A stretch of 40,255 bases of DNA from Spirirestis rafaelensis WJT71-NPBG6 (GTDB lineage: Bacteria > Cyanobacteriota > Cyanobacteriia > Cyanobacteriales > Nostocaceae), in the NCBI GenBank assembly GCA_019359015.1, contig JAHHID010000071.1, positions 1-40,255 of the forward strand, in the 5' to 3' direction. Below are positions 4,346-33,962 of this stretch, one piece after another. Every line of letters begins with the position of its first letter. Within the stretch, counting starts at the first letter, position 1. The notes beneath the pieces were generated by a model that was given only the letters and a program-made list of their open reading frames with translations, had not been told where the DNA came from and did not search any database. The translations under genes and the position numbers were made by a program.

Positions 4346-5299
4346 ATGAATATTCAACGTTGGATTTCTCGAAGGGAACCAAATTGGCAACGTCTAGATG
4401 CTTTATTAAGACAAGTAGAAAAAAAAGGAATCAAGTCACTGCAAGCTGGGGAAATTAGAGAGTTAGCGAGTTTATACCGTTCAGTAGCGGCAGATTTAGC
4501 CCGTGCTCAGACTCACAAAGTAGGCAATACTTTGACGCAAAGTTTACATTTTTTGACAACTCGCGCTTATACGCAGATTTATCAAGGTTCAAGACGACAA
4601 GAATGGCAAGCAGTGGTGGAATTCTATAGTTGGGGATTACCAGCAGTGGTGCAGCAAACATTTCCATATATTGCCACAGCCACTGCTACATTTATGCTAG
4701 GGGCATTAGTTGCTTGGTGGTATGCGTGGCAAGATCCCACCTTTATATCACTTGTGGTTCCAGAAAGCTTAATTTCCCAGGTGCGAGATGAGCATAAATT
4801 GTGGATGGGGTCAATAGTCGGAATTGAACCTTTAGCATCGAGCAATATCACAATTAATAATTTATCAGTGTCGTTTGGTGCGATCGCTGGTGGCATGACA
4901 GCTGGAATTTACACCACATTTTTATTATGGTTCAATGGTTTATTGATTGGTGCCCTTGCCACCTTAGTGGGTCAAAATAATCTTGCTTATCCCTTTTGGG
5001 CATTTGTATTTCCGCATGGTTCTCTAGAATTACCCGCCATCTTTTTTGCTGGTGGTGCAGGTTTTTTACTCGCCAGAGCGATTTTATTTCCCGGTAAATA
5101 TCGCCGTCGTGACGCACTCAAATTTTACGGCTCTCTGGCTGTGCAGTTACTATTTGGCATTATCCCAATGTTGACAATTGCTGGTACTATCGAAGGATTT
5201 ATTTCTCCTAATCCTAGTATACCAAGTCCTTTTAAATACCTCCTGGGGATGAGTTTGTTTGTGTTTTTGCTAGTGTATTCTAGTCGCAAGCGGAGGTAA
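4346..5299 (+). CDS. Stage II sporulation protein M (SpoIIM) family membrane protein
   Basis: The 317-aa protein has a soluble helical N-terminus with WQRLDALLRQVEKKGIKSLQAGE and LYRSVAADLARAQ (residues ~14-57), which is characteristic of bacterial SpoIIM-like proteins outside Firmicutes. Several membrane helices follow, with the conserved NNLSVSFGAIAGGMTAGIYT region and a PHGSLELPAIFFAGGAGFLL segment. Cyanobacteria do not sporulate, so the name reflects only the family. The related protein of spore formers acts in engulfment together with peptidoglycan hydrolases. It diverges from the RDD/membrane-protein pair and belongs functionally with the MoxR/DUF58 genes downstream. Confidence 0.88.
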   Translation: MNIQRWISRREPNWQRLDALLRQVEKKGIKSLQAGEIRELASLYRSVAADLARAQTHKVGNTLTQSLHFLTTRAYTQIYQGSRRQEWQAVVEFYSWGLPAVVQQTFPYIATATATFMLGALVAWWYAWQDPTFISLVVPESLISQVRDEHKLWMGSIVGIEPLASSNITINNLSVSFGAIAGGMTAGIYTTFLLWFNGLLIGALATLVGQNNLAYPFWAFVFPHGSLELPAIFFAGGAGFLLARAILFPGKYRRRDALKFYGSLAVQLLFGIIPMLTIAGTIEGFISPNPSIPSPFKYLLGMSLFVFLLVYSSRKRR

Positions 5300-11518: not shown

Positions 11519-11520
11519 AG

Positions 11521-11700
11521 GGGGGACTGGGGATTGGGGGAGATGAGGGAGCAGGGGGAGCAGGGGGAGCAGGGGGAGCAGGGGGAGATGGGGGAGCAGG
11601 GGAAGAAATATTTCTTCTTTCTTGCCTTTTACCCTTTACCCTTTTCCCTTTCCCCCTCCTCAATTGCCCCATGCCCAATTAATGACTATTGACTATTAAC
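11521..11700. repeat. STRR array upstream of the DUF4129 gene
   Basis: The plus strand reads a GGGGGAGCA unit in five or so copies, then a degenerate part, then the TGACTATTGACTATTAACTATTGAC heptamer type at the right end. The array starts 3 bp before the DUF4129 ATG and ends inside the last codons and stop of the DUF2243 gene. Any promoter for the DUF4129 series must lie within or beyond it. Confidence 0.8.
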
Positions 11701-18149: not shown

Positions 18150-18316
18150 GCATGGGGCATTGGGCATTGGGCATTGGGCAATGGGGCAGGAGGAAGGGTA
18201 AAAAGTAAAAAACAAGGAAGAAGAAATATTTCTTCCCCTGCTCCCCCTGCTCCCCCTGCTCCCCCTGCTTCCTCTGCTTCCTCTGCTCCCCCTGCTCCCC
18301 CTGCTCCCCCTCTCCC
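18150..18316. repeat. STRR block
   Basis: The block holds GGGCATT units (about four), then a CTCCCCCTG unit repeated about eight times with TTCCTCTGC variants. It separates the SDR gene from a small minus-strand gene. No gene is visible inside. Confidence 0.85.
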
Positions 18317-18466
18317 CTACTCTCTCCTATCTCCATAATCTTCAGAAGACTTGGGATCTAACTCCCAGCGACCGTTGTCGCGCTGTTCTAAAATTTCGTG
18401 GGATTCCTTATCTGGATCTATACGGTTGACTTGAGCTTCTAAATCTATTTGTTGTTGATCTGGCAT
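18317..18466 (-). CDS. Small hydrophilic protein, 49 aa
   Basis: An ATG at 18466-18464 opens a 49-codon frame. Its protein starts [20 protein letters not shown], continues [19 protein letters not shown] and ends [10 protein letters not shown] before TAG. The sequence is acidic, has no membrane segment and is not low complexity, unlike the repeats that abut its stop. The codon use looks normal. I do not recognise a family, and there is no strong SD. Its reading frame is the only sensible coding candidate in this gap. Confidence 0.55.
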
Positions 18467-21153: not shown

Positions 21154-21384
<231 letters not shown>

Positions 21385-23708: not shown

Positions 23709-24878
23709 ATGAAAGCACTATGCTGGCACGGCGCAAATGATGTAAGAGTTGATACAGTGCCAGATCCAAAAATTCTTAACCCGCGTGATGCGATTGTCAA
23801 AATTACATCAACGGCGATTTGCGGTTCTGATTTGCATCTTTTCAATGGCTACATCCCCACGATGGAAAAAGGCGATATCCTTGGTCATGAATTCATGGGG
23901 GAAGTCGTTGAACTTGGTAGCGCTGTTAATAATATAAAAATAGGCGATCGCGTTGTTGTTCCTTTCACAATATCTTGTGGTAACTGCTTTTTCTGCAATC
24001 GCGATTTATGGTCACTTTGCGATAACTCCAATCCCAACGGTTGGCTAGCAGAAAAAATCATGGGTCATTCTCCCGCAGGTCTATTTGGCTACTCTCACAT
24101 TTTCGGTGGTTACGCCGGCGGTCAGGCAGAATATGCCCGTGTACCCTTTGCCGATGTGGGTTTATTCAAAGTACCCGATGGAATGACGGATGACCAAGTA
24201 TTATTTCTAACTGATATTTTCCCAACTGGCTATATGGCAGCGGAGAACTGCAACATCAAACCCGGTGATATCGTCGCGGTTTGGGGTTGTGGACCAGTTG
24301 GACAATTCGCCATCAGAAGCGCTTACATGTTAGGCGCTGAACGTGTGATCGCCATTGATCGCGTTCCCGAACGCTTGCAAATGGCTAAAGAACAGGGCAA
24401 GGCAGAAGTCCTTAACTACGAAGAAGTTGATGTCGGTGAAGCCCTCAAAGAAATGACCGGTGGTCGCGGTCCCGACGCTGTGATTGATGCAGTCGGACTA
24501 GAAGCACACGGTACTGATGCGATGGGATTATACGACAGAGTAAAACAAGAGTTGCGCCTGGAATCAGACCGACCAACCGCATTACGAAACGCGATCGTAG
24601 CTTGTGGCAAAGCTGGTCACGTATCAGTTGCAGGTGCTTACGGTGGCTTCCTCGACAAAGTGCCAATGGGTGCAGCCATGAACAAAGCCTTAACCTTCAA
24701 GATGGGACAAACCCACGTCCACAGGTACTTGCGACCCTTATTAGAACACATTCAAAACGGTGATATCGATCCAACATTCATCATCACCCATACCCTACCT
24801 TTAGAACAAGCGCCCCACGGTTACGATATTTTCAAGCACAAGAAAGACAACTGCATCAAAGTTGTACTCAAACCTTGA
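23709..24878 (+). CDS. Zinc-dependent alcohol dehydrogenase, copy 2 (MDR family)
   Basis: The 389-aa paralogue of the gene at 21385 aligns without gaps by eye. All ligands are kept: Cys38, His60-Glu61, and structural cysteines 90, 93, 96 and 104 ([15 protein letters not shown]). [13 protein letters not shown] forms the nucleotide site. The two differ mainly in the substrate-lining segments (for example [13 protein letters not shown] versus [13 protein letters not shown]), so the copies may have different substrates. It follows the second exported-protein gene and precedes the broken Gfo/Idh/MocA gene. Confidence 0.92.
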
Positions 24879-24970: not shown

Positions 24971-26135
24971 ATGCTTGACTTATTAAAATCAGAACTCACC
25001 CGTCGTACTCTTTTATATAAAGCTGGTTTTGGGTTAATTACACTCGGTATTGTCCCAGCAATTTTTAAACCCAGCCGTAGTTTAGCTCAAGCAGCAAAAG
25101 AGCCAGCGATGCCGCCAGAAAAAAAGTTAGGATGGGCAGTTGTGGGTTTAGGAAAATTTGCCACCCAACAAATTATTCCTTCGTTTGCTGAGTGTAAGCG
25201 TTCAAAATTGGTAGCATTGGTGAGTGGCGATCGCACTAAAGCCGAACACTATGCACGGCAATACGGCGTTAATTCCAAAAATATTTATAATTACCAAAAT
25301 TACGACACTATCCGGAATAACCCTGAGGTAGATGTTATTTACATAATCTTGCCTAACGGTTTACACGCAGAATACAGCATTCGCGGCGCACAAGCTGGCA
25401 AGCACATCATGTGTGAAAAGCCGATGGCAGTCACCGTCGCCGAATGTCAAGCGATGATTGATGCTGCGAAAAAAGCAGAGCGCAAATTAATGGTTGCATA
25501 TCGCGCTCAATATGAACCATTCAATCTCGCTGCGATTCAACTGGCGCAAAGCGGAAAACTTGGCAAGTTGAAATCTATCGTCTCTGACCACGGACGGAAC
25601 CTCGACCCCAAAGACCCCGCAGACCGCTGGCGTGCTAACAAAAAACTAGCTGGGGGGGGTTCTGTTTATGACATCGGTATTTACAGCTTACAAGCCACAA
25701 GATACATCACAGGCGAAGAACCCGTAGAAATCAGCGCCATCATGTATAGCACCCCCAACGACCCCCGCTTTCGGGAAGTTGAGGAAAATGTCAACTTCCC
25801 GAAAGCGTTTTCCTAGCGGCGTGCTTGCCAATTGTACATCTAGCTACGGCTACTCTGACACCAAACGCATCCAGGTTTTTGGATCTGAAGCTACCTTGGA
25901 GTTAGACCCAGCCACCGATTACTACAAACACCGTCTGACCGTTAAGCGCAAAAACGGCAACGAAGAGCAAAATATCAAAGAACAGAATCAATTCGCCTTA
26001 GAGATGGATCACCTTTCTGAGTCCATCATGAATAACAAACAGCCCAAAACCCCCGGCGAAGAAGGTTTGCAAGATGTCAGACTGATGCAGCTAATTTACG
26101 AAGCAGCTCGCACAGGTAGAACAATCAAGGTTTAA
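24971..26135 (+). pseudogene. Gfo/Idh/MocA family oxidoreductase, glucose-fructose oxidoreductase-like, frameshifted
   Basis: The N-terminal part (24971-25816) holds a Tat-like signal (TRRTLLYKAGFG), the dinucleotide motif VVGLGKFATQQIIP and the EKP motif (CEKPMAVT). The domain-joining DPADRWRANKKLAGGGSVYD follows, then it ends early at FPKAFS. The C-terminal part (25779-26135, RFPSGVLANCTSSYGYSDTK) continues in the +1 frame to ARTGRTIKV. Removing one C of CCC at 25798-25800 joins them into a 387-aa protein of normal length. The break sits in a perfect 17-bp inverted repeat (25766-25807). The product would be a periplasmic or cytoplasmic sugar oxidoreductase using bound NADP. Confidence 0.88.
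25766..25807. repeat. Perfect 17-bp inverted repeat at the frameshift
   Basis: CGCTTTCGGGAAGTTGA (25766-25782) and its exact reverse complement (25791-25807) flank an 8-nt loop inside the coding region of the Gfo/Idh/MocA gene. The right arm is where the reading frame breaks. Confidence 0.95.
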
Positions 26136-29538: not shown

Positions 29539-30135
29539 ATGAACACATTTCGCGTAGGTGTTGCAGGTCCAGTAGGATCGGGAAAGACAGCTTTGGTCGA
29601 TGCTTTGTGCAAAGCGATGCGTGAAAAATATAATATTGCCGTCGTCACAAATGATATCTATACTCAGGAGGATGCACAATATCTGGTGCGTTCTCAAGCA
29701 TTAACAAGCGATCGCATTTTAGGTGTAGAAACTGGCGGTTGTCCTCACACAGCTATCCGCGAAGATGCTTCGATGAATTTGGCAGCAATTGAACAGTTAG
29801 AAGTGCGTTTTAGCGATTTAGATTTGGTATTTTTAGAAAGTGGCGGCGATAATTTGGCAGCTACCTTTAGCCCAGAGTTAGTAGATTTAACTATTTACGT
29901 TATTGATGTTGCAGCAGGCGATAAAATTCCCCGTAAAGGTGGTCCCGGCATTACTAAATCTGATTTATTAGTGATAAATAAAATTGATTTAGCTCCCTAT
30001 GTTGGCGCTGATTTAAATGTAATGGAACGTGATGCAAAAAAAATGCGTGGCGATAAACCTTTTATTTTCACTAATTTGAAAACTCAGTCAGGACTGGCGG
30101 ATGTGATTAAGTTTGTGGACACAAATATTTGTTAA
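29539..30135 (+). CDS. ureG: Urease accessory GTPase UreG
   Basis: The 198-aa SIMIBI-class GTPase has the P-loop GPVGSGKT (10-17) and the metal-binding CPH motif (68-70 in [11 protein letters not shown]). [15 protein letters not shown] and the guanine-specificity motif [10 protein letters not shown] follow. It drives nickel insertion into urease with UreE and UreF. All motifs are intact. A degraded second copy lies at 33400-33962, and similarity continues about 45 bp beyond both stop codons. Confidence 0.95.
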
Positions 30136-30640
30136 TAAGTCAATGCGCTGGAGGCAGTATGAGGGTAAGGAGGGTAAGGCTAGTACCGCTTCGCGGAAGT
30201 CAAAAGTCAAAAGTCAAAAGTCAAAAGTAATATGGAGTAAGCTTTTTAGCGATTGAGAATGGTTGGTTTATTTACGCCAGCCTGTACTAGTACCGCTTCT
30301 CCTTCAAAGACGCTTGTCTGCGATACGCTGCTTTGTAGCTTGCTTGTCGGTTCGCGGAGCGTCTGGGTGATTGATATCGTGTTCGGTTAAAGACTTATCA
30401 TGGTTGTCCGTAAGGGGGCAGGGAGCAGAGGGAGAAAGAGTTTTAAGATTTTTGCACAGATAGAGGAATCATAACTAATCAGCCAGACATGATATGAGAA
30501 GGGAAAGAGTACGCGAACGTGGAATTCACGCACTCGCCCTTAGATGCCTTGTGATGCCTGCGGCAATCTCTAACGCTCGTTCGCGGAGCGTCTTTCCTTC
30601 TCCCTCATAGAAGAGGCGCTTCGCCAAGGGAGAAGACTCG
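30136..30640. repeat. Repeat-rich intergenic region
   Basis: After ureG come a heptamer array (TCAAAAG repeated four to five times at 30199-30228) and several fragments of the dispersed TTCGCGGAGCGTCT/CGCTACGCGAACG family that is common in Nostocales. No intact gene is visible. Similar fragments recur at about 30915-30945. Confidence 0.65.
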
Positions 30641-33399: not shown

Positions 33400-33962
33400 C
33401 TTGGGCAAGACGGCTTTCGTGGATGCTTTGTGTAAGGGGATACGTGAAAAATATAATATTGCCGTCGTCACGAATTATATATATACTTAGGAGCATGCAT
33501 GCACAATTTTTGATGCCTTCTCAAGCGTTAACAAGCGATCGCATTTTGGGTGTTTAAACTGGCGCTTGTCCTCACACAGCTATCCGCGAAGATGCTTCGA
33601 TAAATTTGGCAGCAATTGAACAGTTAGAAGTGCGTTTTACTGATTTAGATTTGGTATTTTTAGAATGCGGTGGCGAGAATTTGGCGGCTACCTTTAGCCC
33701 AGAGTTAGTAGATTGAACTATTTAGGTTATTGATGTTACAGCAGGCGATAAAATTTCTCGCACAGGTGGTCCCGCAATTACTAAATTTGATTTATTAGTG
33801 ATAAATAAAACTGATTTGGCTCTTTATCTCAACGCAGATTTAAATGTGATGGAACGCGATATTAGAAAAATGCGCGGCGACAAAGCTTTTATTTTTAGGA
33901 ATTTAAAAAGACAATCGAGATTAGCCGATATAGTTAAGTTTGTATCCACTAATATTTGTTAA
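33400..33962 (+). pseudogene. Degraded second copy of ureG
   Basis: The DNA parallels ureG from the P-loop lysine region to its stop (ending AATATTTGT-TAA as in the intact gene). It lacks the first ~14 codons and carries several in-frame stops: CAG to TAG at the YTQED position, GTAGAA to GTTTAA, and GATTTA to GATTGA. There is also a small insertion around 33488-33505. Similarity continues past the stop (GTCAATGCGCTG, 33966 onward). It can produce no functional UreG. Confidence 0.93.

Follow-up and report, generated by a model that had tools for sequence, protein, structure and literature searches.

How did the reading frame of an enzyme gene come to break exactly inside a perfect inverted repeat, and what did the break do to the gene? 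The gene in question belongs to the Gfo/Idh/MocA family and lies in the window, i.e., the whole analysed stretch of 40,255 bases, which is a complete contig (C71) of a 7.07-Mb draft genome (G000) of 143 contigs. The original prediction, made before any relatives were compared, described a perfect 17-bp inverted repeat with an 8-nt loop and a change of frame in its right arm, and attributed both to a template switch. The repeat is present as described, with 17-nt arms at 25766-25782 and 25791-25807 that are 100% complementary (17/17 pairs) and separated by 8 nt. It is the longest perfect inverted repeat with a loop of 3-20 nt in the 40,255 bases scanned. The window holds six such repeats of at least 12 bp, the runner-up measuring 15 bp, while none of at least 12 bp was found in 30 dinucleotide shuffles of the window. 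The span initially proposed for the lesion, 25766-25812, correctly contains both arms, but it includes five extra bases beyond the right arm, which ends at 25807. The features of the locus are the following:

23709-24878, + strand: upstream neighbour, intact, zinc-dependent alcohol dehydrogenase family, 389 aa
24971-25816, + strand: 5' ORF of the frame-broken Gfo/Idh/MocA gene (glucose-fructose oxidoreductase-like), 281 aa, ending just past the repeat; Pfam PF01408 and the first part of PF02894/PF22725
25766-25782, + strand: left arm of the perfect repeat (17 bp), which presumably served as template; same in the same-genus orthologue
25783-25790, + strand: 8-nt loop, same in the same-genus orthologue; contains an ATG (25788-25790) in the frame of the 3' piece
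25791-25807, + strand: right arm, presumably the rewritten one; it exceeds that of the 40 homologous loci read by one base
25799-25804, + strand: inner right-arm block, 6 bases vs. 5 in the same-genus orthologue, from which it differs
25788-26135, + strand: remainder of the gene (3' piece), read in the other frame from the loop ATG to the normal stop, 115 aa
26175-26516, + strand: downstream neighbour, intact, cupin-domain protein, 113 aa

The frame of the gene does change inside the right arm, as had been claimed. The stop codon of the 5' frame occupies 25814-25816, six bases past the arm, and the C-terminal family domain resumes in a different frame and runs to 26135. Both the NAD-binding Rossmann domain and the C-terminal alpha/beta domain were detected, the second one across two frames. 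Pfam places the NAD-binding domain and the first part of the C-terminal one in the 5' piece, and the rest of the latter in the 3' piece. PF02894 (218 positions) is split by the frameshift so that the 5' piece covers profile positions 5-81 and the 3' piece positions 90-218. No single ORF spans the whole protein; a 281-aa ORF is followed by the remainder out of frame. The window copy is thus most likely a broken, not working member of the glucose-fructose-oxidoreductase-like Gfo/Idh/MocA enzymes.

A DNA search of 59 genomes, the window's own included (E threshold 0.001), gave matches in 12. The nearest intact relative was found in the same-genus Hassallia byssoidea VB512170 (G002), which matches at 92% DNA identity and where the orthologue forms a single intact ORF of 387 aa. 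By sequence, the closest solved relatives of this intact orthologue are the Zymomonas-type glucose-fructose oxidoreductase structures 1ofg and 1h6a (E 9.7e-120), followed by the aldose-aldose oxidoreductase 5a02 (E 1.1e-107). Compared to these enzymes, to which the cyanobacterial family is likened by sequence, the window copy is split by the frameshift. In the Hassallia orthologue the left arm and the loop show no difference from those of the window, while the right arm is one base shorter. Across 25766-25807 all differences are located in the right arm, in an inner block of 5 bases in the orthologue and 6 in the window, in agreement with the forecast that the palindrome of relatives would be imperfect, shorter by one base and different solely in the right arm. 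The block accounts for four substitutions and one insertion in six alignment columns, each of them matching the left arm, and its version in the window exactly equals a part of the window's own left arm in reverse complement. In the orthologue it is flanked by stretches that already pair, 8 nt on the loop side and 3 nt on the outer side. The hairpin RNA has a stability of -30.7 kcal/mol in the window and -18.3 kcal/mol in the orthologue. In the same gene, the window has a run of eight G at 25652-25659 where the orthologue has GGTGGCGG; the length is equal and in frame, and there is a C-to-G change nearby.

Since the two flanks already pair in the orthologue and the differing block equals the reverse complement of the left arm, we read the change as the left arm having been copied onto the right one. 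The changes are limited to one arm and templated by the other, and the derived repeat is perfect, while the ancestral one is imperfect with paired flanks. With an identical left arm and loop and a right-arm block templated by the left arm, the geometry of the Hassallia orthologue supports the template-switch reading, and a quasipalindrome-correction mutation very probably produced both the perfect repeat and the frameshift. The same arm could in principle have been perfected by chance, through separate point mutations plus an insertion; with the two species 8% apart over the stretch, single substitutions are common. However, four substitutions and one insertion would have to fall within six columns and each fit the left arm; the rest of the gene comparison contains no further indel. 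Moreover, none of the shuffles reached 12 bp, and in the survey described below a single control match was longer than 17 nt, in a low-complexity tract. We therefore rejected this explanation on the number and fit of the changes and regard it as extremely improbable.

As judged from the relatives, the ancestral gene would have carried an imperfect hairpin with an inner stem of 8 bp and an outer stem of 3 bp, parted by a block that for the most part does not pair and comprises 6 bases in the left arm and 5 in the right. As the DNA was replicated, the nascent strand probably folded onto itself and was primed on the 8-bp stem. It would then have copied the left arm through the block before re-annealing to its proper template at the 3-bp stem. 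In one step, such an event would perfect the arms, lengthen the right arm by one base and shift the frame. Alternatively, a jump to the other parental strand may have led to an identical product, and the data fit both routes; the strand involved and the fold-back step are inferred.

We examined 40 homologous loci, i.e., 32 close ones and 8 of a subfamily that is approximately 52-54% identical, with some genomes present twice as they occur in two collections. The site was read by motif in 39 loci (26 distinct sequences), and the fortieth, L096, was read separately. All 40 have the shorter, in-frame form of the right side and a frame open across the site, and none (0/40) carries the perfect repeat. 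Orthologues with a perfect repeat in an intact frame, which would speak against a template switch, were accordingly not found among the 40. The 8-bp inner stem is present in the Hassallia orthologue and in the Nostoc-type loci L016, L017, L097 and L098, and is interrupted in the other 34 of the 39. No intermediate state of the arms, as stepwise point changes might have left, was observed among the 40 loci, which include no close strain. In addition, a scan with one genome per species (84,980 species) yielded 371 related stretches. Among the best 80 of these 371, to which the analysis was limited, the stretches aligned in one frame across the site (>50% identity) have the same short form, a result to be read with the single-frame filter in mind, which demands the open form and is blind to broken copies. 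A distant relative of the gene in Pontibacter silvestris (L085) has an in-frame stop near the same site.

The open frame in the relatives also bears on whether ribosomal frameshifting might rescue the full enzyme. Four T directly follow the right arm (25808-25811), and such a run would let the tRNA re-pair after slipping. However, since all 40 homologous loci are open across the site, there is no conserved programmed site among them. Programmed or rescued frameshifting was thus rejected as the main reading, and we consider it very unlikely.

As the 17-bp stem is followed by four T, premature termination of the transcript at the new hairpin is possible. However, our terminator scan returned five terminator-like sites in the region covered, while shuffles had 4.0 on average, so that the number is about that expected by chance.

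Another reading is that the two pieces are both expressed, in which case translation of the 3' piece would start at the loop ATG, preceded by a GAGG, and both chains would assemble. A GAGG ahead of an ATG is read as a site of ribosome binding, the ATG at 25788 opens 115 codons in the frame of the C-terminal part, and nonsynonymous change in the 3' piece is low (2 nonsynonymous and 9 synonymous changes on the window branch). Nevertheless, the ATG and the GAGG are already present in the intact orthologue, where the ATG is out of frame, and hence they were not made for this role. Furthermore, the split falls within the C-terminal domain, and the low nonsynonymous count is equally explained by recent loss. 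We regard expression in two pieces as quite unlikely. The same low probability is given to a gene fission, in which one template switch would have created the split and the strong hairpin at once and, by means of the loop ATG, two overlapping and possibly coupled working ORFs.

The question of how unusual such a patch is was addressed by two comparisons with the Hassallia genome. In the smaller one, the window was compared with one contig of that genome (26,841 aligned columns, 310 difference clusters). The longest reverse-complement match (17 nt) covers the right-arm cluster; the next one (14 nt) lies in low-complexity sequence, and neither the complement nor the reversed controls exceeded 11 nt. 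In the larger survey, 24 stretches of the Hassallia genome were compared with the window plus 40 pieces of its genome, each 20,000 bases long, with 254,657 bases aligned and 1,971 difference clusters before the flank-quality filter. Seven reverse-complement matches of at least 12 nt covering a cluster were found, four in the window's genome and three in Hassallia, the latter being gap-only by our reading. Controls of at least 12 nt numbered 0 (complement) and 2 (reversed): complement controls reached at most 10 nt, while the reversed ones of 22 and 15 nt are located in low-complexity or tandem tracts and otherwise reached 11 nt. A match of 17 nt is not unique, as a second one was found in the window's genome (L177:19165) at a gap-type difference, a place that we read as poorly aligned. 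A weaker candidate for arm homogenisation was noticed inside a 270-aa ORF (L187, approximately 5235-5262; contig C2 of the same genome, approximately 65,247), where two changes relative to a third congener make the case weak. Within the fraction of the genome that was surveyed, no patch of this kind is clearer than the 17-bp repeat. A mutational propensity of the whole genus was considered and dropped, given that the survey gave seven matches, of which three were gap-only in Hassallia, and that the best other candidate was weak. Short dispersed repeats in the window (approximately 908-1101, 11519-11680, 18155-18327, 21300-21380 and 30175-30290) have many matches in congeneric genomes.

The survey is also relevant to whether the patch arose in the tube rather than in the cell. 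Self-priming at the imperfect hairpin during end repair could yield chimeric reads with homogenised arms, which might then be taken as consensus in the assembly. The product could look identical to a mutation, the gene is otherwise without decay, and inverted-repeat artefacts are described for sonicated and enzymatically fragmented libraries in the available portion of PMC10908179. According to the same portion, however, these chimeric molecules imitate such a change at low frequency, and calls that rare should lose out in a consensus. The counts above show no clear excess of patches of at least 12 nt in this assembly over that of Hassallia, and the genome is 99.98% complete with 0.52% contamination. 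A check for frame breaks was also performed on genes of at least 100 aa whose orthologues in the stretches compared (from G002, G001 and G009) are more than 70% identical. Besides the gene under study, the sole frame-broken match was a decayed duplicate of a neighbouring gene, namely the second copy at 33404-33959 of a 198-aa gene at 29539-30132, which matches in two frames. An artefact of library or assembly appears unlikely to us.

Regarding the age of the event, changes were polarised with five outgroup genes, for the two pieces separately and with the lesion codons left out. On the window branch, 9 nonsynonymous and 33 synonymous changes were counted, compared to 14 and 28 on the Hassallia branch, with 7 changes unpolarised; without constraint, a nonsynonymous to synonymous ratio of about 3:1 would be expected. 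Depending on the assumed background constraint, the part of the branch evolving without constraint has a 95% upper bound of 9-18% for the whole gene and 21-29% for the 3' piece. These counts suggest that the frameshift is recent or that the pieces are still working. As the flanking pieces are without decay, the event looks young, and an old pseudogene was rejected, neither piece having decayed. Approximately 110 C-terminal residues are lost, for which reason the function of the enzyme has most likely been lost as well. No close second copy was found in the same genome, which gave one match at E 1e-80 or better in the search of 217 genomes of the family. In the tree of the 5' piece, the window is nearest by path to Hassallia VB512170 and the congener G001; full support was obtained for 3 of the 15 inner branches, and the genus branch (91/90) is not among them.

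In several related genomes, this gene is either disrupted or absent. The protein search of the 217 family genomes gave matches in 44. Among the 23 genomes with at least approximately 80% identity, 19 have a near whole-length match without a stop and one more (G122) is whole in the alignment, while one (G141) is cut by a contig end and two are frame-broken, i.e., the window's genome and Scytonema tolypothrichoides VB-61278 (G015; L058). In the latter, a 13-bp tandem duplication (L004, 2100-2125) shifts the frame independently. The congener G001 likewise carries an independent lesion in the same gene, a deletion of approximately 1.1 kb (L006, contig C56, 500-520), by which the 5' part, ending at the equivalent of 25338, is fused to the last portion of the downstream cupin gene, starting at the equivalent of 26451. 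No match to the gene at E 0.001 (DNA) or 1e-80 (protein) was obtained in the congener G004, nor, at the same thresholds, in G003, a genome that is 54% complete. The gene neighbours in the four relatives examined are the alcohol dehydrogenase upstream and the cupin downstream, with one extra ORF between in G022. One alignment row each of G022 and G004, taken from a wrong strand or place, was left out of the analysis. Three related cyanobacterial genomes thus have this enzyme gene in broken form, each through a different kind of mutation.

Overall, the observation and the explanation given for it in the original prediction are both supported, and the ancestral state was predicted beforehand and then met in the relatives. 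The locus is an unusually clear natural cyanobacterial example, and a close relative retains the gene in intact form; mutations of this kind are known, and the instance is new. It also illustrates that one copying slip may mimic four substitutions and an insertion, which ordinary substitution models would miscount. Our literature search on quasi-palindromes combined with cyanobacteria found nothing. This type of mutation has been described in Escherichia coli reporters, yeast and rRNA genes, as far as the accessible parts of three sources go (PMC7202029; PMC8604942; PMC8794818). In the mechanism outlined in the first of them, the nascent strand templates on itself and returns, and the repeat becomes perfect or more perfect; template-switch mutations at imperfect repeats are exemplified by the E. 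coli thyA hotspot and the lacZ QP reporters (excerpts of PMC7202029). The present case would have in common with these systems an imperfect repeat made perfect or more perfect by a template switch that can add or remove bases. In contrast to the laboratory hotspot and reporters of those excerpts, it is a natural change between related cyanobacteria and is known from comparison. Template-switch origins are also reported for hairpins in RNA genes, where, similarly, a single event makes or perfects a stem (partial text of PMC8794818), while the stem studied here lies in a protein-coding gene. Finally, homogenisation of inverted-repeat arms in coding genes of Saccharomyces cerevisiae, as presented in the section consulted of PMC8604942, likewise involves multinucleotide coding changes in one arm that were found by phylogeny; the yeast changes replaced amino acids, whereas the one in the window shifted the frame.
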